DNA from: Acanthochlamys bracteata
Taxonomy: Eukaryota > Streptophyta > Magnoliopsida > Pandanales > Velloziaceae
Assembly (NCBI GenBank): GCA_019914995.1
Contig: CM034140.1
Location: forward strand, 6,670,526 to 6,734,525
Reading direction: 5' to 3'
DNA length: 64,000 bases
Below are positions 3,215 to 54,728 of this stretch, piece by piece. Within the stretch, counting starts at the first letter, position 1; each line of letters starts with the position of its first letter. The notes under the pieces are model-generated. The model saw only the letters and a list, made by a program, of their open reading frames with translations. It made no database searches and was not told the DNA's origin. The translations under genes were made by a program, and so were the position numbers.

Positions 3215-3856
3215 TGACTAAAAACAGAGAACATGACTTAAAATATCTAATTCTAACAAAGATATAACAAGAACTAATTACACTACTGACTAACACAATT
3301 GACATTTCATAAGAAGCTGTCATGTCTTCACATACAATCATCACAAAACAGTTCTGATTGATATAGAACGAACAGTAGAGCACAAAATCAATAAACAAAA
3401 CAACATCTCATATTTCACATTCATTAGATACAATCATAATAGAACATATGTTATATACAATCATAATAGAACATATGTTATATATGACGATTATTGCATT
3501 CTAAAGTAAGCTCCAATTACTTATCTTGACATAAATATTTCCTCCAGAAAGCTGGTTCTATATCCTACATTCTTTAACAACGATAAACATTTAGTATATA
3601 ACCACAAGAATAACCTAAATCAAAATATATTTCTTTTATATGCATTTTTCTGAGTTATCTGAATCAAAATCTAAACATGCCAAAAACTTGCGAAAATCGA
3701 ACATCATCAATATGATCGACATGTCAAGTTATACAAGTAGCAGAACAAATTCTAGTTTTACTCATAACAACGACCGACTAAAATTATAACAACAGTTAAC
3801 TAATGCTAAAACAATATCAGTAACTAATTAATAATTTCACGCAACATGAGAGTTCA
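3215..3856 (-). repeat. Duplicated block, copy 2, left part
   Basis: This aligns by eye with 2235-2880 of copy 1 and 16500-17130 of copy 3. It breaks off at 3856 within the phrase 'gagagttca' and resumes at 10831 with 'gttcaacaacac'. The other copies read straight through here (gagagtattaacaacac in copy 1). That locates the insertion of the solo-LTR-like element and gives its 5-bp target duplication GTTCA (3852-3856 and 10831-10835). A 27-bp perfect tandem duplication lies inside at 3427-3480. Confidence 0.85.
3427..3480. repeat. 27-bp tandem duplication
   Basis: Two identical adjacent 27-bp copies occupy 3427-3453 and 3454-3480. The corresponding place in block copies 1 and 3 has the unit only once, so the duplication arose in copy 2 alone. 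Confidence 0.9.
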
Positions 3857-4787
3857 TGTCACGACCCGAGGCCCTGTCAGGCACTAGACTAATCCAAACT
3901 CAAGCTCAGACTCGTCCAGTCAGCCTACCAAAACTCGGTACAAATAATAAGTACATAATTTCTTCAAACTTTTCGGCAAAACCTCCCATAAAAATCCAAG
4001 AGAAAACTTTTACAAATTCAACTACTGTAACAAACTCAACAATTTACTCACAAAGATACCAAACAATCTTCAAACTTCAATCACCCATAAAAGAAATAAA
4101 CACCTCATTGGACTATTACAAGCCAACAACTTTTAATATGAAAACCAATAAATATGAATACAACTCGGCATAATACACAAATAAAACGTACAAATCCCTC
4201 GAAGTTACAGAGCTCACTAAGAAATATGAAACACAAGAGTATACCATCATCGTGTCACTCCAATCTACATCCGTGAGCGCCCATTTTATCAGCTCTACTC
4301 TGCAACAACTGGGGGAGGCCAAAGAAGAGAATACTGAACCCAATCTCAATGAGGTGAAAAATTAGAATGCACCATTTAAGGCTTCTAATGCATTACTCTA
4401 CCGTTATCTCAACATATCTCTATATGAAACGATGCAACGATAGATCAAATTAGTCTTGCTAAGCCCTAAGTCGTCTCATACCAACTCAGTCCTTAACAAG
4501 AAAAAAAAGGCTAAAAATGTGATGCAACACACTTGAAAATTATTTCTCTTATAAAGTCATTCATTATACGCATGACGTTATAGTACTTAACTTTCGTAAT
4601 ATCAACATGTACATATCTAAATATTTAACCATATACTACAAAAATAATTCTAATGGTCTTCTATGTATGTCGATATATGCAACCTCCTAAGCCATTAATA
4701 ATTTTATCCACTCATGGCAGATGTATTATATGGACTAGAAAATGATAATAGTATAACATAAGTAGTGAGAGAGACTACGTCTCCAAC

Positions 4788-5132
4788 TGTTACGCCACGA
4801 GCCGTAGCTTGGAGTGAGCCACTACCTATCGGGAAGAAATAAAAGAGTCCAAGTCTTATTAGGAGTCTTTGGGTTTTTCCTCATTAGGAGTATTAGAGTT
4901 TCATTGGAAAACTAATATTTAGTGTCCAAGTTAGATTGAAATCCTAACTTTATTAGTGTAGTAAATCTAAAACTTTAGCTATGAATTTTAGCTATAAATA
5001 AGAGTGCTTATACTTATTAAAGTGGAGGAAGAAGAATTGAATTAGTTAGTTTATATTAGTTTTATCTTAAGTTCTTTAGTTTATTTAGCTTCAAACTACT
5101 TCTACGGTTCGTATGATTTACGAATCGTATCA
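4788..5132 (+). repeat. 5' LTR of the non-autonomous retrotransposon
   Basis: It matches 7926-8273 along its whole length with scattered substitutions and small indels. A TATA-like TATAAATA lies at 4993-5000 and is conserved at 8134-8141 in the other LTR, placing a likely start of element transcription about 30 bp downstream. Confidence 0.92.
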
Positions 5133-5134
5133 AC

Positions 5135-5147
5135 TAGTATCAGAGCC
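5135..5147 (+). promoter_or_regulatory. Primer-binding site (initiator-Met tRNA type)
   Basis: TAGTATCAGAGCC starts 2 bp after the 5' LTR. The usual plant site begins TGGTATCAGAGC, so there is one mismatch. Its position and sequence identify it as the minus-strand priming site. Confidence 0.8.
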
Positions 5148-5182
5148 GTCGATCTGCACCCTCGCTTTTGCTGTCAGCTACG

Positions 5183-6139
5183 ATGTCCTCATTGTACCAG
5201 CAACAAATACAATACCCACAATATTATCAACAATATTATCAGCAACAGAAGTTTCATCTGCAATCGTATTACGGTAATGATTCTTACCAGCAATATAATC
5301 AGTCATATGAGTTATATCCGCAACAATATTCTCATAATCTTAATCAGCAATATTATTGGCAACAAGAGCCATATTCGCATGGGTTTCATCAAAATCCTTA
5401 TGAGCAATCTTATCAACAATATCAAATTCAGCATCAGAGTTCACAAATTTATTATCATCAACAATATCAAATCCAACCACCGCAAACTCATGCAATGCCT
5501 AAACCTCAGCATACGAGTGATGCTCTAGAGCGGTTAAGCTTACTTCTAGCCGAGCTAAAGGAGTTTTCTGCCGGACTTCAGAAATTTAAGAATAAACAGA
5601 ACCAAATAGAAGAAGTTCAACAACAACAGCTTCCTATTTCACATGATCCAACTCATGTTTCTTTGGATACTACTCAAGCCACTGCGGCCACCGGAATTAA
5701 ATCGCTTCATATGGATTCTTCACAATATTTTCCCACTCTAATCACTCGTCCCACTGCCGCTACCGAAATCCAACAACCACCGCCACCAACTGCTACCACA
5801 AGCGCTGCCTCATCCCTTTCAGACAGCATATTCAAAATTGATGAGTTTAGACTTCCAACTTTAGCACCGCTAGCACCAGCAAAAGAACGGAGGTATTCGG
5901 CTGAACCAAAATCTCCCAAATCGTCAAATTCGAAATCAAATCAATCACCAACAGTGATGTCAGATCGTGCCGACGACGATAAGGCTACTAAGCTGCCTGG
6001 GATGAAACAAGCCGACAAATCCCGTCTCAAGAGTGAAGCTCAGAAATCTACCGCTGTTCAAATCTCTTTCAAAATTGTCTTTATATCTTACAACAACAAC
6101 ATTATTAGCATCAACCTTCAGAGGCCGAATCGAACATGA
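5183..6139 (+). CDS. Q/Y-rich ORF of the non-autonomous retrotransposon
   Basis: This 318-codon frame starts at the first ATG after the primer-binding site, giving MSSLYQQQ. Residues 1 to about 110 are dominated by Gln, Tyr, Ser and His, a low-complexity prion-like composition. Next comes a short helical stretch with hydrophobic heptads (ALERLSLLLAELKEFSAGLQ, about residues 117-136) that could form a coiled coil. A Pro/Thr/Ser/Ala-rich linker and a basic tail follow. It sits where gag would be but shows no CCHC knuckle and no recognised capsid motif. It could be a degenerate gag-like protein, a captured host fragment or a non-coding passenger. Beyond about residue 300 the frame runs into a different frame that continues at 6033-6917, suggesting one indel in an originally longer ORF. 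Confidence 0.55.
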   Translation: MSSLYQQQIQYPQYYQQYYQQQKFHLQSYYGNDSYQQYNQSYELYPQQYSHNLNQQYYWQQEPYSHGFHQNPYEQSYQQYQIQHQSSQIYYHQQYQIQPPQTHAMPKPQHTSDALERLSLLLAELKEFSAGLQKFKNKQNQIEEVQQQQLPISHDPTHVSLDTTQATAATGIKSLHMDSSQYFPTLITRPTAATEIQQPPPPTATTSAASSLSDSIFKIDEFRLPTLAPLAPAKERRYSAEPKSPKSSNSKSNQSPTVMSDRADDDKATKLPGMKQADKSRLKSEAQKSTAVQISFKIVFISYNNNIISINLQRPNRT

Positions 6140-6917
6140 CGGCGACGATGATGAATTTGAAGAAGAGCGCATCAAAAAGCCTATAGATCCACCCGATCCT
6201 ACAAAGTCTCTCTGTGCAGACCTTGGTATCGCAAGTGGAACTGGTTACTCTCATTCATCGCTCATGTTCATCGTAGAGGACTCCGGTGGCCGGCGGGTTC
6301 CACATAGTGAAGAGGATATCGCTATTTTAGGAGGTAACAGTGCCGGCACCTATTCTGTTACTTGTGCTGTTCCACAACTTCTGAAATTTTGGGGTCATAT
6401 GGAGTTAGATTTACGAGCAATGATGGGTAGACCATTTTCTGTGTTCTTTGGCTCGGCATTAGCAACACGCAGAATCAGTGTTACTAGTTTATTGACAACA
6501 TCTTCGAGTCACTGTCCCAAAAAAGTCAATCAGATGATGTGCAACATGCCTAACTATACTGGAGGGGTATTGGACACTTGTGCTAGATCTTCTGGATGGG
6601 TTGTGTTGCCAAACATTGGTTCGACGTTACGAAAAGTTTGTAGACATCACTTGACAGAATGGTGCATGAAGAATAATGATTGCATGTATGGACAATTGCC
6701 ACATAATTTGCTAGTGATGGCGATTACTGGGACGACGATAGTGGTATCCCTAAGCCAGACTTCCATGGCGCCCTCTGAAGTTACGGTGGCTAGCTCACAT
6801 GCTATTAATGCTACTAGGATGCTCCAGCCCCATGCTGCCCAGATGCACGGACAGCAAGCCAAGGTAAAAAAAAGGCACGAGGTTCTCTTGATAAAGTTGA
6901 TAATGAGGACATCTTGA
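6120..6917 (+). CDS. Middle ORF of the retrotransposon, unidentified
   Basis: This is a long open frame (open from 6033, and plausible as coding after about 6120, where an acidic DDDEFEEERIKK stretch follows the Q/Y-rich ORF). I recognise no domain. It ends in SHAINATRM...QQAKVKKRHE. A one-base change in the A-run at 6866-6873 then moves the reading into the RRM frame (KARGSLDKVDNEDILKK). The middle and RRM frames were therefore probably one continuous captured coding sequence, split by an indel. No ATG decides a start. Confidence 0.4.
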   Translation, partial: RGRIEHDGDDDEFEEERIKKPIDPPDPTKSLCADLGIASGTGYSHSSLMFIVEDSGGRRVPHSEEDIAILGGNSAGTYSVTCAVPQLLKFWGHMELDLRAMMGRPFSVFFGSALATRRISVTSLLTTSSSHCPKKVNQMMCNMPNYTGGVLDTCARSSGWVVLPNIGSTLRKVCRHHLTEWCMKNNDCMYGQLPHNLLVMAITGTTIVVSLSQTSMAPSEVTVASSHAINATRMLQPHAAQMHGQQAKVKKRHEVLLIKLIMRTS

Positions 6918-7429
6918 AGAAAACACTCGAAGTTAGCAACCTTAGTCCTCTCTTTGCTGCAGATGACCTCAAACAATTTTTTGGTTATTATGGCACTATT
7001 GTTAAGTGTATACTCGCAGAAGATGAGCACTTTGCATATGTTGAGTACTCAAAGCAAGAAGAAGCTAGTGCAGGTTTAGCACTCAACAATATGTACGTGG
7101 GTAGCGGTTCACTGAATGGTGAGATGGCAAAGTCCTCTCGTCTGAAACCAGCTTTGGCTAACTCATTCTATGTGTCAACGTCATTGATGATGCAGCAAGC
7201 AGAAGTAGTGCAGCAGAAGAATTTTCTGCAGACTTTACTTATGCAACAAGCATTAGCTATGCAGCAGGCTGCTAACAAAGCGACAACAATGAAGTCTTCA
7301 ATTGCGATAGCATCTACCAGAGCTACTGAATTAAGTAAGAACCTCAAGCCAGAAAGGTTAATTATGGATGGGAAGGAAGATGGAAACAAAATGAGGTCAT
7401 GCCTCCTTTACGTCAGAAATCAAGGTTGA
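6874..7429 (+). pseudogene. Captured RRM splicing-factor fragment in retrotransposon
   Basis: The frame reads KKTLEVSNLSPLF, then LKQFFGYYGTIV, then HFAYVEYSKQEEASAGLALN. These are the beta-alpha-beta elements of an RNA recognition motif with RNP2-like VSNLSP and RNP1-like HFAYVEYS. It continues into a Met/Gln/Ala-rich helix (MQQALAMQQAANKATTMKSS) and an ATELSKNLK tail. This order matches a plant RRM protein related to SR-type splicing factors (Arabidopsis At3g23900/IRR type, from memory). There are no introns, so capture through RNA is likely. No ATG precedes the domain, because the frame opens at a TTG at 6914, and the N-terminal part is out of frame. It is probably not translated as a normal splicing factor. 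Confidence 0.7.
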
Positions 7430-7704
7430 ATGTTGAGCGTCTTGTGCATGCAAAGACTGTTGATTCAGAGGGAGATAAGTTTTATTGGCTGTCGTCTGTT
7501 CTTCTGTTTGTGTCTTCAGCCTGGGACAGATTGCTCTTCGCTTATGACATCGGTGCTAGTTTTCAAATTAATGCAGTTGGACGAAGATACAAGTATGGGT
7601 TAAGTGCTCCTATAGCAGAGTTGTTGGGCAGACGGATGTGGACTTGGTCATCATCCCCTCACTGGTTATTTCTTAGGGCTGTTCAAAGCCAAGGGTTAAT
7701 ATAG
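7399..7704 (+). other. Short ORF near the 3' end of the retrotransposon
   Basis: A 101-codon frame overlaps the end of the RRM frame by 31 bp. It has no recognisable motif, and its basic and Trp-rich composition is not informative. It may be a further captured piece or chance. The stretch 7705-7912 up to the polypurine tract has no long frame. Confidence 0.25.
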
Positions 7705-7912
7705 GAGGCTTATGCAGAATTAAAAGACTCATTGTTCGTGACTGATTGGATCTCTTAGTACTTCTTAGTTGCTGCAGTAAAGATAAATGTAACACTCTTA
7801 GTAGAGGAGCTCTGTGCACTTAGCTCACTCGATAGAAATGTGCTCTCTTCCTGTATGAGCTTGCTGAGCAGAACCAACGGCATTGTCAACCTTGAGAACA
7901 AGGTTGATTTTC

Positions 7913-7925
7913 AGGAGGGGTGGAA
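7913..7925 (+). promoter_or_regulatory. Polypurine tract
   Basis: AGGAGGGGTGGAA lies immediately before the 3' LTR. It is the only purine-rich run at this place and marks plus-strand priming. Confidence 0.75.
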
Positions 7926-8273
7926 TGTTACGCCACGAGCCGTAGCTTGGAGTGAGCCACTACCTATCGGGAAGAAATAAGAGAGTCCAAGTCTTATTAG
8001 GAGTCTTTGGGCTTTTCCTCATTAGGAGTATTAGAGTTTCATTGGAAAACTAATATTTAGTGTCCAAGTTAGGTTGAAGTCCTAACTTTATTAGAGTTGT
8101 GGTAAAGCTAGAACTTTAGCTATGAATTTTAGCTATAAATAAGAGTGCTTATACTCATTAAAAAGGAGGAAGAAGAATTGAATTAGTTAGTTTATTTTAG
8201 TTTTATCTGAAGTTCTTTAGTTTATTTAGCTTCAAACTACTTCTACGGTTAGTATGATTTACGAATCGTATCA
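7926..8273 (+). repeat. 3' LTR of the non-autonomous retrotransposon
   Basis: It is the same LTR as 4788-5132, ends GTATCA at 8273 and is followed by the CCAAC target duplication. TATAAATA is at 8134-8141. Confidence 0.92.
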
Positions 8274-8278
8274 CCAAC

Positions 8279-10830
8279 TCACACCATATCATCACAAGCA
8301 TGCGCATATATATGAATCAATCTAACATATGCAAATCTTATTTCTTAATATCTAGATAAGCACAAGTCAATATGTATATCGCTAATGCATCAAGCACTCT
8401 TAACCATACCTCACAAGCGATCGAGTGAGATCACGTCTCCAACTCGCATCACATCAAACTCTTTGCATATATGCATGCATAAAGGTACCATAAATATATC
8501 AATACATAACACATCTTCTTGTAATGCTTATGTATGCACGTGACATTCATGACAATAAATCTTTGAATGCATACGTGTATAGATGCGTGCAGTAAAAGGT
8601 GAAATGCATACCTATACTATCTATATATGTGGCCGTGCATGTAGTATCTAACTACATGACGCGATACTGTTTAGAGAATCAGGATAATATAATCATATAG
8701 TATAGAGCGAAACCCAGTCTCCAGCTCAACCTACCAATCAAGCTACTTCTGCCTCGGCGAGATACAACCATCCCAAGTGATCAAATCGGATGAACGTGGT
8801 ATCGGCCCCACACGCATGGGCCTGATAATACTATGACCGTAGTTGGATGCCCGCCCCACACCCACTGGGGTCCTAATCTCAACTCCTGACTCGCCTGCCC
8901 TCGTGTATCGCGAGTGTCCATACATAAAAAGTCAATCAAATTCAATTATCTACAAGCATTAATCATAGGTCATATGCTTATGCATATACAAACATAATCA
9001 ACCAAGCCTAAAAGCCTCTATTGGATTTCCATCACCATCAGGTGTCCATGCACATGTAGGTACACAAAGTTACATACTCTATGCTTGAAATTCATATACA
9101 AACAATATGTGAAAGTCACACTCACATATCTAAACTTACAATGCATCATGATTACAATAATTGTCATTCTTGATGAGCATGCTTTACAAGTGAAAAGTGC
9201 ATTCGATGCAGAACCCAATATGGCGTACGAAATGGTGCATGCAATTTAATAGTATCACGTGTCTTCAAAATCATTTGAGTCACGTATAAACTAGTTAAGC
9301 ATGCTAATCCATTTACCAGTGATATACTAATATACTTGTGTTGTGATTATTATGCACATATGCCAATCTAAGCATGCTAATATGTTAGATTCAAAACTTC
9401 TAGTAGCTTAGCATATATCATAACTTGATATAGAGTTAAAATGTCTATACTTTAGCCACTTTAATAGCATAATACCAATGTCAAGTTTACATGATATCCA
9501 ATATATAGAAGACATTTTATAGATCTCATGTACTTGTATATCACAAATTCTAGATTATAACATACAAAAATGGTATTCTCATCAATCATACAACTAATCA
9601 ATTCCTAACATTTTATCTTAATTACTATTACTGTCCTAATTTTATGCAGGCATGCACATATAAACATTCTATGGCATGAAAGATCAAATCTCACTATGCA
9701 TTGAATTGTAAGGTTATGCCGAATGCACCAAAGAATATATTACTTGCGTTGAAAACTTAACGGTAAAGCTAAAAACAAAAGACACAAGTAACCCTCACCT
9801 GTATGTCCATATAATTTCTAAATTTCTACGGCTATCATCAACTTGAATATCCAAGATGCTCATCAAGACCATAATATACACGAAAAAAATTACCATCCAA
9901 TCTTCATAACATGAACTAATTCACAATCTTAACACGCATCCAAAACCCATTTAACTCAATTAGCTCTAAAGCACAATCGAACCAAGATCCATTATTAACT
10001 ATTAAATCCAATCAATCAATAACTTATAAACCATAATACCGACTAATACTAAAACTAGCGGGAACAAAGGCCTACCAAATCAAAGCAAGTCGAGCTCCTA
10101 AATAGCCTCACAGTCTCAACGGCGAACTTACCGATTTTCGACCCGAACAACACCTATGACAAAACGGGTTACCCAAAGGCTCAAAGACAAGATAAAACGC
10201 CATAAGAGATTATTACAACTTACCTTAGCCGCGGGTCTCGCCGGCTCGCCGGATTCCGGCGAAAATTAGGTTTCCGACCAAAGGTGGATTTCAGGCGGCA
10301 AAGAGGCGGCAAAAATAACGAAAATCCAATAAGAGGGACGGTGAAGCCAAAGGAGAACGCCGGCGGGCGAAATCGGCAAAACAACATCCGACGGAAAACC
10401 CTTTTTCAATCACATGCCTAGGCTAGAATTCATTCAAACTGAGGGAGGGAAAAGCTAAAACATGCCAAGGAGAAGGATATTAGAAGATCGGAATTGAATA
10501 ATCGCCGGCGAAACGCCCGGCGAAACTCTAGGATTATGCCGGCGCGAAGGGAGAGATCGTTCGAGAGCCAGATGCGAGGAAACGTTGACGGAGAAGAAAG
10601 ATGCCGGAGGTAAGGAAAGAGATGAGCGCCGGAGGGAAGACCAAAGGCCGGCGAGATGAGCCGCACCAAGCGGCGCTCGGGTGAGAGCTTGGGGACCGAG
10701 CAGGGAAGACGATAGGGAAAAGAAAAATTAAATGAAATCAAGGAAGAGTGAATTGAAGGCATTGGGCTTATACTTGTTAGCAATTAGCTTAAACATGGGC
10801 TTTAGTCCAAACAAGTATTGAGATGTTACA
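8279..10830. other. Right part of the solo LTR, no gene
   Basis: This is AT-rich with alternating purine-pyrimidine runs such as tatatgcatgcata (8468-8481), then GC-rich from 10240 to 10720. Open frames here, for example 10430-10783 minus, lack any recognisable motif and are best read as LTR sequence. Confidence 0.6.
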
Positions 10831-22535: not shown

Positions 22536-23471
22536 CTATTCGCGGTAATGGAAAGATCTAGCGAGTTCAGCGAGTCGAAGCCCTACTTCACGGAGTGTGT
22601 CATGGCCATCAGGTGAAGGCGGACCGATTCCAGTGTGCCGAAGAGAGGGTGGCCCACCAGGCCTGAGAGCAAGAGCTTGGATTAAAGCTGGCCATTGAAG
22701 ACCTTGCATGAGACTGAAATCAACGACGTGGACACGATTGTAGCCGTCGAATGCTTCGAGAATCGCTTGGTTTGCGGTGAAGTGAGCAAACGGGCTTGCT
22801 TCATAGAAATGGTGATAGAGAATCTCGTGCTCCGCAGGAGAGATCTCAGCGACAGAAGAAACAACGTTGTAGATCCGACAGCAGAGAGCGTCGGCGAAAC
22901 ATGCGGCGACTTTACCGATGCCTGACACGTTGCTAACGCGGGAAAGAAGAAGCTTGATCTCTTCAAGCAAAGTGCAGGCGAGAATCGTCTCTGCCCGGTG
23001 AACAGAATCAGCACAAGACATTAGAAGGTGAACCAACCGGATTCCGGAATCTTCTTCTTCTTCAACCCGCTGCGCAACCGCCGCTGCAGCTGCTGCTAAT
23101 GTTGTAACAGGTGGCGGAGGTGGATAAGTAGATTCCGGCCAGGAACTAAACTCAGAACTATTAATTTGCATAGGCGGTGGAGGAGGTAGAACTAATGCTT
23201 GATCTGAACAACTGTTGAACTCAGAAAGCATCGAATCAACCCAAGCGGCGATGTCCGAAGGGTTCGAATGAACGACATCGAATGGATTGACAGTGGTAGC
23301 TGTAGTTGGACAAGAAACCATAACCGTCTCGAGCTGTTCTAGACGTTGTGCTACGTGTTGTAGCTCGGATGAAAGAACTCTGTAGCCAGCACAGGCGAGT
23401 TCGCCGTCGATCTCCGCTGTTGTAGGCGGACTGTAGCAAGCATTTGCTGCACAGTATGGGTATGTTCCCAT
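22536..23471 (-). pseudogene. Truncated DELLA-like GRAS protein
   Basis: The frame is 322 codons from ATG 23504, or 311 from ATG 23471 (MGTYPYCAANAC), with no introns, as is usual for DELLA genes. It shows a decayed DELLA segment (GELACAGYRVLSSELQHVAQ, then RLEQLETVM) and a TVHYNP-like segment (VVHSNPSDIAAWVDSMLSEF). A Pro/Ala linker follows, then the GRAS LHRI region (LVHLLMSCADSV) and the VHIID core (VHVVDFSLMQGLQWPALIQA, LRPGGPPSLRHTGIGPP). It stops at HYRE just after the VHIID block, so LHRII, PFYRE and SAW, about 200 residues, are missing. DELLA proteins are nuclear repressors of gibberellin responses that are bound by GID1 through DELLA/TVHYNP. Here those contacts are altered and the dimerising C-terminus is absent. 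It could be a dead copy or a short dominant-type protein. Confidence 0.75.
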
Positions 23472-23622
23472 CCCTTGAGTTTTGGATAGATAGATTAGAT
23501 TCAACTGCTGTGCTTAATCATATACTTCGAACTGAAGAGGAAGAAGAGAAGAAGAAGTTTGTCTCCCTGTTTTCCTGTTGCGGTGAAGTTGTCATGTCGG
23601 GTCTTAAACGAAGAAGAAAGAG

Positions 23623-42740: not shown

Positions 42741-45700
42741 CTAGCAGCTGTCTTCTGACTTGGAGATAGACGAGATTGAGAGCTTCTTCTTCATCTTATC
42801 TCCTCCGTCGATGCTGCTGTTGTTGCTCTTTGCCTTTGATGAGCTTCGGTTTGCAGAACTATTTCTTATCCTTACTGTAGTTCTGCTGCTGCCTCCTTTG
42901 ACTTCAGCAGGTTGCCTGACCTTTATTCCTCGTATCATCTGTAGCATTTTGCAGACAACCTTGAATTAATATAAATATTCAGTTATATTACGGGCATGTT
43001 TCCGATACATTCAGTAAATTTGAATTTTTATGAAATCAATTTAAAATATTAAATTAAAAATTTTTATAAAAAATAAATTTTTATATTAACTTTATATTAA
43101 TAGTAAGTTTTAAAATTTTAAAAAAATAATTTTGATAAAAGTTTATTTTAAATTAAAAATAAGTTTAAAAAAATTAAAATTTTGAGTGATAATAAACACG
43201 ACACGTTTGGAAGTAATTTTCAAATAAACTTGTTTGAAACAACAAAAAAAATTTTAAAAATAAATTCTATTTTTTTATTAAAAAATAATTACTAATAAAT
43301 TTTTAAGACGACAAAATTTTTTATATTTTGTTATTTTTTAAATAAAAAATTTATCACAATATTATTAAAACTTATTAAAAAATAATAAATTAAAATGAAA
43401 AAAGAAAAAACCCAAACATGCCTTACTATGTTATGAATTTCCGAAAAACAAGCACCTAAAGTAAGGTAGCTTATTAGTTCAAATAAACTTACGCAAACGT
43501 TTTAGTGATATAAAGAATATTTGGGAGTGCTTTTAAAAAAAGTTATTTTAAAATAAAATACATTTTAAACTAAGCTTTACTTTTCTATTTCAATAAACTA
43601 ATTAAAACAAATAATAATAATAATACTAATATTTTATGATGTAAAATTTTACTATACTTTCTAATTTTTTAAAATATGTATATTCTAAAAAATTTATTAA
43701 ATATGAAACAAAAAGTAGATGAAAAGTTTAACTAAACATCACCATAGTTATAAATTTGATATGGATTATCGTAGTTATAAAAATCTTACGTATTTGCCGC
43801 ATTTGACGTCAGCATAGATGACTATGAAGTCCCCTTCTTGAAGCTCGTTAGATCGTATAAAATCTCCTGAAAACCCCATTACCAATGTAATATGTGAACC
43901 ATAGAGACAGAACTAAAAATTATAAAATGAATTTTCAACTAAGAAAATTTTGTTAAATAAGCCTCAGTTAGAACTCAATTTCAAAATCTAATAAAAAATA
44001 AGATACATAAATAGTCATCCAATTTAGTAATAAATAATACGAGACAACTCAATACTTCTCTTCATGCATAACCTACAAGACCGACAGCAATTTCTTTATA
44101 GGGCTAATTCTCTTACAAAATCAATTTTTAATTACCGTATTAAATGAGCTTTACGTAAAACTCAATTTCAAAAACTAACAAAATAAAGGTGCATTTGGCT
44201 AAGCATATCACAAAAATAATTTTTAAATTTTCTATTTCATATTTTTTAATATAAATTTTATAAATATTTAAAAATATATTTAAAAACTTTAAAAATATAA
44301 AGAAATTTAACGTAGTAAGATTTTTTTATATATTTTATTATTTATTTAGAGATTAAAAAAATATAATTCGTTTTTCAAAAAAAATAAAAATATTTTCTAC
44401 TTTAAAAATTTTATTTCAAAAATACTCTAAAACGTTTCCTAAAAATAAAATATCCAAATTTATATAAATTGCTATCTAGTTTAATAAAAGGTGTCCCAAT
44501 TCAACAATATTACCTGTATTCTCGAGCAGATACATTCTGCTTTTGTTGTTAGGCCAAAACCTATAACGCATGTTCCACACTCTTGAAGTACCTATATCTT
44601 CCATGGCTATTGAGATACCATCTCTTGTGTCAAGTTCCGGAAGATGAATCTCTGCCTCTTTCTGTGATTGCAACAAGAACAAAATAATATAACGATTCCA
44701 CCATTGTTCATCAAATATATATATAATATTTATAATAGGCAAATTTTAGAGATCAATAGATATAATAAAACAGTGCAGGGAGTGCTTATTATCCTAAACC
44801 AATAAGATTATACATCACTCACTTTAGGCAGCACGATTCTGCCAAGGCTGCCAACGTCGCTCTGCTTTAGCACCTTCTGGAGAAGGAATCGCAAATTCTT
44901 CTCCACTTTCAATCCCTACTTTCCAAAACATAGTTAATAGAGAAATGTTGCGTTAACAAATAATGGCAAGAATTCAAACGAGATAACGCAATTTCAAAGA
45001 TTCAAGTGAAAATTTCCCACACTGAATCATTACTAGCACAGAAATTTTGACAAGTTCAAAAGCCAACCTGTCGCTTCTCTGAAGAAGACGAATTACGTTG
45101 AGTACTATTCTGCGTTCCTGACGATGCAATCTGCGACTGTACTTGTGCTTGTATGTTAGACGAAGGCGTTACCGATGGAACGCCGGAATCCGGTACCGGA
45201 TTGAATTGATATGAAGAAGAAGGCAGTGATTGCCAGAAACACCAGTTTGCAGTGCTTCTTTGATTAGCGTAATTCGTTCCTACTTCAGAAGACATTGATC
45301 CAAGATCCATATGAGCAGCAGTTGAATTATTGCGGAAGTAATTATGCTGCTGATGAAGTTGAAGCTGTAGTTGAAGCTGGTGGTGAGCTTCATTATCATG
45401 GTGCCTGTGGTTGCGTTGATGATGCTTCTGAATCCGGTGCTGATGTAGCGACGACAACCGTCTTTGCCTCGCCATTCTTTTTTTTCTTGCTTCCCTCGTT
45501 GCGGAAGCAAGACTCGAAATCCTTTGATCAAATAACTGTCCCGGGTATTGACTCGAAAACCCCGAATAATTCAAAGGAAGCTGGGTATTGTACGGAAATG
45601 GACAGATCTGTTCCACTGCATTGAACTGATCTAAACCGAATGTTTGATCGGTAACCGCAGAATATGGATCAACTGCGTAGTTCATGATCGCCTGAGACGG

Positions 45701-46606
45701 TAAAGAACTCGAATCGATCTCGTAAGAAGATTGCCGATGAACCCATGAATTGTGTAACATGTAATTCTGCTCTGTATCATAGCTGTACTGATCATAGTTC
45801 GTGTTCGTAGATTGATCATGAATGCTAGAGAACTGGTGCTGCAGCTGCCATTCATCATCTTGAAATTCTTCGCCGGCAATATTCTGAAACTTTTTCTTCT
45901 GGTTGAGATGGTGGCATTGAACCCAATCAAGAATCAACTTCAGCAACTTTTTCATGGCCTGTTTTCCACCGCCGAGACGCCGAGCAGCGGACTCGATCGT
46001 AGATTTCTTCAGTTTAATTCTCCGTAAATCTTCCGGGGAAATGACTTCTTTGTTGCTCTTTAGCCAATTAAAGAAAACATTCATCAACTCTTCCGACGAC
46101 GACGGACTCTCTTCCACCATTTTCGCAGTCGATCCGTGATCTGCTGCTACTGCGTCGATGATCTGCTGATCTTCAGAAAATAGGCGTGTATATTCCCAGT
46201 GATCTGAATTATTACCCAAATCGATATCACCGAGGAAATCAAACCCTTCTGATGACTCACTAACGTTCTTATCATTACAGTATTTTTCAACACGGAAATC
46301 CGGCACGGTCACTACCGGAGTTTCCTGCGTGTTGATGGAAGCATCAGAAACTTTAAGAAAAAACCAAGGAGATCTAGACGGTGAATTCGAAGACGAAGAA
46401 GTTGTTTGGTGCACCGAAACAAAGTTGGAAGACTCCGGCGACGATGAAGAAGGTGAAGAAAGGAAATCCGGGAGTGAAGAGAAAGCATCATCTGCTCCGA
46501 GAAGAAATGTTTCGCTGTTGTTTTCCTCTTCATCATCTTCAGCAGCATGGTTTACAGAAGCCATGATTGTTTCTGTCGATTGGAAAATCTTCGTCTTCTT
46601 GCTCAC
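42741..46606 (-). CDS. ABI3: ABI3-like B3-domain transcription factor
   Basis: Five exons (45068-46606, 44823-44915, 44514-44661, 43790-43866 and 42741-42938) join in frame to 684 codons, or 670 from the second Met (46564, [14 protein letters not shown]). The acidic A1-like N-terminus is Ser-rich. The B1 region is [20 protein letters not shown] then [20 protein letters not shown]. The basic B2/NLS is [15 protein letters not shown]. The B3 DNA-binding domain reads [57 protein letters not shown], and [16 protein letters not shown] Ser/Lys-rich tail follows. ABI3 activates seed-maturation and ABA-response genes through RY motifs, together with ABI5-type bZIPs via B1. Length and order match the family. 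A His/Gln-rich insert follows B2 (about residues 393-431). The choice of start is open. Confidence 0.95.
44190..44436. repeat. AT-rich MITE-like repeat, family A, in ABI3 intron 3
   Basis: GTGCATTTGGCTAAGCAT opens the copy and CTCTAAAACGTTTCC closes it. It lies within the ABI3 intron between 43866 and 44514, so it is transcribed as part of the pre-mRNA. Confidence 0.5.
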
Positions 46607-46713
46607 TGTGATCTGGTCATGATAATTAATCAGTTTTCTTGATTTGAGTTTAAAGTTTTTGAGTTAGTAGTAACAGAAGCCACCACCGCTGGTAGAACTG
46701 TTTGGGTTCTTTG

Positions 46714-52329: not shown

Positions 52330-52513
52330 AGAAGAACAGCAAACTTTGAAGAGTTAGAGAAGCAGTAGTAGTTGAAGAAGCAGAAGCAGAAGAAGCAGAA
52401 AGAAAGAAGCAGCACGAGAAGAAGAAGAGAAACAAAGAAGAACAAATCAGAAACAAAGAGAAACAAAGAAGCAGAAGGAAGAAGGAAAGAAAGAAGCTTT
52501 GAAACTAATCATA
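52330..52513 (+). promoter_or_regulatory. Purine-rich 5' leader of the glycosyltransferase gene
   Basis: It is almost continuous GA-rich sequence (gaagaag, agaagcag repeats) directly before the ATG, a common 5'-UTR composition. It contains no upstream ATG. Confidence 0.45.
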
Positions 52514-54728
52514 ATGGTTCTAGTAGTTCGTTCTCTATCTCGTCACTCCACTCTGTTCCTCTTCTCCATCTCTCTTCTTCTATTCTTTCTTCTTTCTTTC
52601 TTCTTCTTCTTCTCCTCTCCACCACCACCACCACCACCGACAACATCAACAACAAAAACAATTCTAACAATTCCACCTTCAATTCCACCAACACCAAAAT
52701 CTCCAACTCGACAACAACAACAACAACAACAACAACGGGAACAACAAATCAAACAGTTTTCGGTCGAAAACATTGCGTTCGGAATCGCTTCAAGTTTGAA
52801 ATCCGTCCACCGCCGAGCACAATTCATCAAGCTTTGGTACAATCCCAACACCACCGCAGCGTTTCTCTTTCTCGATTCCCAACCTCATCGACGTTTCCCA
52901 CTTCCTTCTCCACTTCCGCCAATAATCGTTTCACAAGATGATGATTCACGTTTCCCGTTCACTTCTCCGACCGGCCCTCGCTCTGCTATTCGAGTTTCCC
53001 TAATCCTCCCTCGGCTAGTTCAAATTTTGAACCTGAATTGTTCGTCTGAGTTCAATAAATTTCATTGGATTGTTGTAGGAGATGATGATACGGTTTTCTT
53101 TGTAGAGAATTTGGTGAGGGTTTTAGGGAAGTATGATTACAGAGAATTGTATTATGTTGGGGGGAATTCGGAGTCCCATGATCAGAATGTGAAACATGGG
53201 TTTGGGATGGCGTATGGTGGTGGAGGGATTGCGATGAGTTGTCCGATGGCGGTGGAGCTTGCCAGAGTCATGGAGAGTTGCTTGATGAGGTATGGGCATT
53301 TGTATGGGAGTGATTCTAGGATTCATGCTTGCGTTTCCGAGCTCGGTGTTGAAGTCACTCGCGAACCTGGGTTCCATCAGGTAATGCTTTGTTGCTACCG
53401 CTGTTTGTTCTTATAAATTCTTATGCTAGAATCTTTTGTTGTTGTTCTTTTTGTTGTTCCAAATGTTGTTTTGTTGTCAGTTTTGTTTTAGTTGGGTGCT
53501 TATCATTTCTAGAGCACTGAATTTACTGTTTAGTTCATTTTCTTCTCTCTTAGAAATCGTGAAGAAGTTCATGCGGTTGCTGGTGCTAATATTGGCATGT
53601 GGTTTTTCATGTGAGTACTGGTTGTTGTATTGATTTTGTTGAGAATTTTTTGTTGTTTTGGTTTTTGGTGATTTTGGAAAGCATGTTTTTTGGTGATATT
53701 TTTTAATTATTTTTGTGTGTTTCCAGGAATGTATGAACATCACCATGCTTTCTGGATGTTTACTGTTGTTGGAGTTCATTCTATCTTTTGTGAATTTTGG
53801 GTTGATTTTTGTGATATGCATATTAGTAGGCTGCAGCAAAAGTTGCCTTCTTTTTGCTCTAAACCATGTTTCATGTGGTTCTTGTGAAGATTGGTTGTGC
53901 GTCCTTAATATTTTGTTGTTGTTGTTATTCACCCAGTTGTGCTTTTCGTGACTTAGAGTTTAAAGTTGTTGAAGTCTCAACCTTCTATAACTCAATAGGT
54001 TGACCTTCGTGGAGATCTCTTTGGCTTGCTAGCTGCACATCCATTAGCTACGTTTGTATCGCTTCATCATGTTGAGCTCGTAAATCCCTTGTTCCCGAGC
54101 ATGAATCAAGCGGAATCTCTAAGGCGTCTCTTTGAAGCTGCACGTGCGGATCCAGGCAGGATTTTCCAGCACATTATCTGTTATGATCGTCGGAAACGTC
54201 AAACTGTTTCAGTTTCCTGGGGATATGCAATTCAAGTATATAAAGGAAACGTACTAGTCCCTGATTTGCTTGCTTTGCCACGGACCTTTATGCCATGGAG
54301 GAGAACTCGTGATGGTTCTAGAAGTTGGTACATGTTTAATACAAAAGAGCTTCATAATGATCCTTGTAAAAGACCAGATATTTTCTTTATGAAATCCATA
54401 ACTTCTGATAATGCCTGGACGCGAGGAAGTTACCACCGACATAACATTGTCAATTGCACAGATAGCACTAGACCAACAAAGTCTGTGCAATCAATCCAAG
54501 TTTCCTCAAAGAAGCTAGATCTTGATAATAGGAAGGTACATACGGTCGCTACATGTTTAAATTCCTAAATTGTATTAAACTTGTTAGTGGATCGCCACGT
54601 GAGTTCTTTCCGAAATGTCACAGGTTTCCAGAAGGCAATGTTGTGATGTTTCATCCCCATCTGATAGAGTGATGGAGATAAAAATTAGAAAGTGTAAGGC
54701 CAATGAGTTGATAGCCATGTATCCTTAG
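52514..54728 (+). CDS. DUF604 / GT31-like glycosyltransferase
   Basis: Three exons (52514-53380, 53999-54535 and 54624-54728) join in frame to 502 codons. The start is ATG 52514 (MVLVVRSLSRHS), after a purine-rich leader. Residues 12-35 form a hydrophobic signal anchor (LFLFSISLLLFFLLSFFFFF), followed by Pro-, Thr- and Gln-rich stalk sequence with a run of eight Gln. This is a type II Golgi protein layout. The catalytic region has WIVVGDDDTVFFVENLV (the DDD metal-binding motif), YYVGGNSES, GMAYGGGGIAMSCPMAVELA and SDSRIHACVSELGVEVTREP. Exon 2 adds FHQVDLRGDLFGLL and the DUF604 part with LPRTFMPWRRTRD. The family is fringe-like beta-1,3-glycosyltransferases of unknown acceptor. No damage is seen. 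Confidence 0.88.

Follow-up and report, generated by a model that had tools for sequence, protein, structure and literature searches.

A non-autonomous LTR retrotransposon of Acanthochlamys bracteata with fragments of two host genes behind a family leader frame

Why should a plant sequence bounded by long terminal repeats (LTRs) encode the RNA recognition motif (RRM) of a splicing regulator in place of a reverse transcriptase? The question is raised by positions 4788 to 8273 of a 64,000-nucleotide stretch of the Acanthochlamys bracteata genome (C15:6670526-6734525, hereafter the window, whose numbering is used where no chromosome is given), which a first-pass annotation had taken for an LTR element that captured and multiplied a host RRM gene. 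Genome searches were made against the 195.5 Mb assembly and score best candidates only, so that all family counts are lower bounds. The sequence is a non-autonomous LTR retrotransposon, its history is almost certainly that a leader reading frame became joined to the spliced mRNA of two host genes, and other members of its family, likewise non-autonomous, carry different host fragments. We consider it probable, taking the statement as a whole, that this is a chimeric element of the type of maize Bs1 in which the host sequence may act as filler, this last function being proposed as an inference.

Direct LTRs with TG...CA ends, of 345 bp (4788..5132, plus strand) and 348 bp (7926..8273, plus strand), are flanked by the target-site duplication CCAAC at 4783..4787 and 8274..8278 (unstranded) and differ at 13 of 345 aligned sites, a Kimura two-parameter divergence of 0.039. 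The primer-binding site TAGTATCAGAGC (5135..5146, plus) matches at 11 of 12 bases what we take to be the tRNA-iMet complement, TGGTATCAGAGC, and reads TTGGTATCAGAGC in several family copies. The polypurine tract GGAGGGGTGGAA (7914-7925, plus) lies within a 3' untranslated end of the family (7804..7925, plus) identified by genome matches: some 40 bases directly upstream of the 3' LTR are matched at 19 other places (87-98%), and the whole 7804-7925 stretch at one other place, at 74%. Reverse transcriptase, integrase and protease gave no Pfam match in the four scanned open reading frames (ORFs) of the interior. On the LTRs, duplications, primer site, purine tract and missing pol frames the first-pass annotation was borne out. 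A 22-base sequence at the element's left edge (4767-4788) recurs at 86% identity at 8423-8444, 150 bases to the right of the element and outside the target duplication.

The interior does encode an RRM, as first annotated (Pfam RRM_1, about 6932..7105, plus, E 7.6e-9, 35.8 bits), and this lies in a captured segment (5904..7429, plus) that aligns to a locus on C4 (C4:9313442-9316273, minus strand, L033; donor 1). The donor locus encodes a 908-residue protein with a filamin domain (E 1.4e-19), an RRM (2.3e-11), a CCCH finger slightly below cut-off (26.5 versus 27 bits) and a long RS tail, and by this architecture we liken it to SCR106 of rice and in part IRR (At3g23900) of Arabidopsis, for which filamin, CCCH, RRM and RS parts are described (PMC10837019). 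The captured stretch begins 53 bases before the donor ATG (at 5957) and ends in the third coding exon; it covers the filamin and CCCH parts besides the RRM, though Pfam no longer detects a filamin domain in the ORF of the element itself, and, unlike SCR106/IRR, the element reaches no further than the beginning of the RS region. The two introns that donor 1 has in this part, of 1218 and 348 bases, are exactly missing, at the exon 1/exon 2 join (6881..6882, plus) and the exon 2/exon 3 join (7395..7396, plus), so that comparison with an intron-bearing parent identifies an intron-less retrocopy of an SCR106/IRR-type gene, as the annotation had supposed. Identity to donor 1 is 82.5% over 521 aligned bases, with dS 0.41 and dN 0.21 over 478 codons. 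The captured RRM frame had no match at E 0.001 in a large protein set.

The capture is not of a single RRM gene, however, and here the first-pass annotation stood only in part, having missed the leader, the start of the captured part at 5904, the second donor and the recurrence of capture across the family. Positions 7424..7711 (plus) derive from a sugar transporter gene on C10 (minus strand, L034; Pfam Sugar_tr, E 2.4e-50; donor 2) and consist of the end of its exon 1 with exons 2 and 3 joined exactly without introns, followed by an in-phase jump near 7551-7558 to a later exon and an end near 7711. At the donor 1/donor 2 junction (7424..7429, plus) six bases, GGTCGA, are common to both donors (GGTTGA in the element) and the donor phases agree. 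No stop lies between the end of the leader and the donor 1 ATG, so the leader frame continues into the donor 1 frame, and thus phase is kept at all three focal junctions (leader/donor 1, donor 1/donor 2 and inside donor 2), while four donor introns in all are missing at exact joins. Intron-less fragments of two host genes therefore lie between the LTRs, and the comparison with Bs1 that had been drawn at the outset is supported.

Template switching between co-packaged RNAs would leave just such in-phase joins on microhomology with the introns gone, and capture by this route is well supported by the anatomy. Spliced host mRNAs would have been packaged with element RNA in particles supplied by a helper, and the reverse transcriptase would have jumped from element RNA to the SCR106/IRR-type mRNA, then to the sugar-transporter mRNA and finally to the 3' end of the element. 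The chimera would then have been copied in trans through further cycles, the present copy being one late insertion with a broken frame. The donor 1 dS of 0.41 is some ten times the LTR divergence, indicating that the capture is older than the present insertion; the chimera presumably passed through earlier copies, which the genome search did not find. Only one copy of the captured interior as a whole was found in the assembly, which does not bear out the idea that the capture was multiplied. Among the best 40 of 151 candidates in a search with the LTR were the focal pair, 37 matches at 75-80% and one 86% relative on C6 (L048), which is alone in its surrounding 8 kb and is apparently a solo LTR.

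The leader ORF (5183..5903, plus) has no Pfam match and by eye shows a Q/Y-rich start, a leucine-rich stretch and a P/T/S-rich tail; it could be a divergent gag. A search with its protein gave 21 matches, in open frames of up to 986 residues, and the interior at 5136-6120 is found, besides itself and donor 1, at 21 other genome places at 65-89%, six of which extend to about 5754-5760. Judged by its ratio of nonsynonymous to synonymous change (omega), the leader looks conserved (0.34 for focal-L035, 0.48 for focal-L037 and 0.24 for L035-L037).

Behind this common leader the sister elements carry other host sequences. Matches to exon-like stretches at other loci were obtained for all five element types for which donors were sought (focal, L035, L047, L045 and L042), several falling in pairs of paralogous loci, although many of the L042 matches belong to a high-copy repeat. 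From 13 sister loci came 83 sense ORFs of 80 residues or more; a Pfam scan of them at E 0.01 gave no match to gag, protease, reverse transcriptase or integrase, so the first-pass annotation is not contradicted by a normal gag-pol in sister copies. What it did find were a GH116 catalytic region (three ORFs), a nucleotide-sugar transferase (two), SecY (two) and single matches, some weak, to Asn synthase, an allantoinase composite, TTI1 TPR, a TIP49 AAA-lid and a Na/Pi cotransporter. Pairing of primer sites with purine tracts gave interiors of about 1.0-4.6 kb in 23 of 24 pairs and 6.5 kb in the other, these pairs and lengths being approximate, since part of 118 primer-site places was used and some ends were estimated from BLAST matches. 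One sister, L035, has a single unbroken frame of 986 codons running from leader into cargo; other long frames occur in L047 (658 and 498), L046 (410 and 581) and L049 (621), but none of these runs unbroken from leader to cargo as the L035 frame does. The GH116 donor (loci on C2/C1) is present in L045, L046 and L047, and a C5/C3 gene, which we take to resemble methionine S-methyltransferase, gives matches for L047 and, nearby, L042. With donors common to several lineages, some captures may predate the lineage split.

No pol-bearing partner was found for the family, RVT_2 having been searched for and RVT_1 (Gypsy) not. Comparison of the best 150 of 2487 RVT_2 candidates with 53 family LTR places gave one within 10 kb, at C18:5642469, on the opposite strand and 2.5 kb from a family LTR; the region C18:5639983-5648000 holds this LTR, the RVT_2 match and a family cargo match at 5647587, and may be a family member into which a Copia element inserted. 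A smaller comparison set 49 RVT_2 places against primer sites and purine tracts, not all of them from this family, and gave five within 9 kb. Two of these lie at primer sites belonging to the other Copia group, L058 being one, a third is the C18 case, and those at C5:4511942 and C2:6630480 lie, by position and strand, outside the family element. The Copia element L058 (C9:4350800-4357700) was rejected as close kin, since BLAST matched it to none of the ten family sequences used, and L057 (C9:3633900-3640378), whose 6.5 kb interior is the largest, was rejected as the autonomous partner, as there is no pol in its ORFs. By eye, ORFs of L057 have an RRM-like stretch unlike the focal RRM, with no RRM match at E 0.01.

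If the cargo was carried through repeated cycles, how did it evolve? For seven cargo fragments from three sister lineages (L046/L047; L035/L036/L040; L045 with a copy on C2) we took as mobile-phase changes those present in every sister copy compared but in neither host gene (donor or paralogue). These came to 71 synonymous and 231 nonsynonymous changes; not one stop was common to all copies, where 14.6 shared stops are expected at equal rates, or ~10 after scaling by the factor of 0.7 taken from the focal simulation. Gapped codons were dropped, which we count against our proposal, and two changes in NT exon A, each a would-be stop on the donor codon, were counted as nonsynonymous, no copy holding an actual stop there. 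Omega per fragment was 0.59-1.2. The host branches of the GH116 and NT pairs had 73 synonymous and 45 nonsynonymous changes, totals that exclude a further donor-side set of 7 and 5 respectively. In the focal element the donor 1 frame has no stop in 478 aligned codons despite 303 differences, the wrong phases of its two long stretches containing 15 and 18 stops and 13 and 18 stops respectively. Simulations that drew on the substitution types seen gave 2.6, 3.5, 5.1, 6.5 and 9.3 stops for 75, 100, 150, 200 and 303 changes, and a probability of no stops of 0.07 at 75 changes, 0.026 at 100 and 0.0005 at 303. A per-copy comparison (element omega 0.86-1.05, no stops) used stretches chosen as open and is not relied on.

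The absence of shared stops at omega near 1 may reflect selection on the openness of the frame rather than on its content. We tentatively propose, from these sequence comparisons, that host coding sequence may be exchangeable, stop-free filler, selection keeping the leader-plus-cargo frame open while blind to what the cargo means. During its mobile life the family would have been selected for one long open frame and not for the amino acids of the cargo, with host mRNAs drawn in repeatedly as a ready source of such frame. Plants degrade RNAs with early stops by nonsense-mediated decay, and the benefit of openness might most simply be escape from this decay, to which an RNA would be exposed if a short ORF were followed by a long 3' tail; alternatively, the leader protein might gain from any C-terminal extension. 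No title or abstract start describing stop-free yet unconstrained cargo was found in the open-licence library searched, though such a report may still be in print.

Several observations weigh against this proposal. Three cargo fragments, at omega 0.59, 0.73 and 0.75, may be under weak constraint. Stops not common to all copies occur in L035 and L040 (one each, NT exon B), L045 (one, GH116) and L046 (one, C19/C20 exon), and the donor 2 frame of the focal copy has a single stop at 7702-7704, near the end of the stretch. Other, more decayed leader pairs reach omega 0.77, the recent pair L037-L038 has 1.21, stops are present in 11 of 15 leader copies, and the contrast between leader (focal-L035) and cargo is modest (chi-square p 0.011) and uses a single leader pair. 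The genome search found no close paralogue of donor 1 or donor 2, which leaves no means of placing the focal changes on the element branch, and as no helper was found we infer both the packaging and the source of the enzyme.

It is also possible, if doubtful, that capture was passive and that the cargo is neutral baggage, the missing shared stops being due to chance or to the way in which the fragments were found. A sister cargo omega of about 1 agrees with this, as does the breakage of the focal copy and most sisters by frameshifts or stops, and captured pairs in rice are reported to average a Ka/Ks of 0.92 (PMC3726574). Neutral baggage does not readily account for a complete lack of shared stops in the seven sister fragments where about 10-15 are expected, for the open 478 codons of donor 1, for the long frames that persist in L035, L047, L046 and L049, or for the phase kept at three of three focal junctions.

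That the element acts as a source of small RNAs silencing the parent splicing regulator is improbable: captured genes in maize elements, Sirevirus included, are reported as reservoirs of small interfering RNAs (PMC13317346) and the focal copy does resemble donor 1, but 82.5% identity is low for perfect-match targeting, and a single copy was found. The thought that the captured RRM protein is useful to the element by binding RNA seems a shade less probable still, and the effect of an encoded RRM on RNA suggested in the first annotation is unlikely for this copy. The RRM frame is open, it still scores as RRM_1 and the element-donor omega over the RRM is 0.62, a value that a neutral element branch and a constrained donor branch would also give. 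The focal frame is now broken, despite the phases kept at its junctions, by frame changes near 6084-6140, near 6866 and near 7400 that leave four overlapping ORFs, and the RRM frame (6818-7429) has no ATG ahead of the end of the RRM, so ordinary AUG initiation cannot yield the RRM from this copy; sister cargo, moreover, has unrelated functions and, at omega about 1, drifts under little amino-acid constraint. A processed pseudogene (a LINE-type retrocopy) inserted in an existing LTR element would explain intron loss alone and is rejected as very unlikely, since by eye no poly-A or inner target duplication surrounds the captured stretch, two unrelated mRNAs are fused in phase on microhomology, and the four sister types tested likewise match exon-like stretches at other loci.

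Chimeric host-gene capture is thus of a known kind, that of maize Bs1, which lacks a reverse transcriptase, and the pattern of selection is the new part. LARD and TR-GAG elements have LTRs, a primer site and a purine tract without pol, and TRIM and LARD elements have no coding leader, whereas the present family encodes both a leader and host coding sequence. Absence of pol from an element with LTRs, primer site and purine tract is described for TRIM elements (PMC13317346), and the same source describes Bs1 as an LTR element with fused segments of three host genes forming a chimeric expressed gene. The focal element is like Bs1 in its fused segments of several host genes and unlike it in its donors, in belonging to a multi-member family with a common leader and different cargo per lineage, and in that the family's cargo stays stop-free while its protein sequence drifts. 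Captured genes are reported in LTR elements of rice and sorghum (PMC3726574), and of retroduplicated NLRs about 72% are reported to lie in elements that have no coding potential for gag or pol (PMC5664825). Retrogenes in the LTR elements of pepper, potato, rice and sorghum are likewise intron-less host genes inside an element; in the available text of these reports they are treated as single-donor, though two or three genes per element are mentioned, whereas here an element ORF is followed by fragments of several genes linked in phase.

Elsewhere in the window, an imperfect duplication of ~0.6 kb lies upstream of the element (2250-2860 and 3222-3853, ~1 kb spacing). A DELLA/GRAS gene at 22536-23510 (minus) is represented by one ORF with a DELLA motif and GRAS model positions 1-173 of 374, which may reflect a frameshift, an error in the sequence or a pseudogene. 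A 535-residue ORF at 45059-46663 (minus) has no Pfam match at 0.001 and presumably resembles the N-terminal part of an ABI3-type seed regulator, and a DUF604/Fringe-like glycosyltransferase gene at 52376-54565 (plus) is in two pieces, 52376-53413 and 53999-54565.

That plant LTR elements capture host genes is known; the present case bears on why the captured pieces persist. In this family leader and cargo can be separated, the leader looking conserved and the cargo seeming free to change but not to stop, and frame openness thus becomes one specific, testable cause of cargo persistence. The family also keeps a natural record of the mRNAs that reverse transcriptase encounters, and host domains fused at random but in phase may by this simple route arise and last long enough to become genes.

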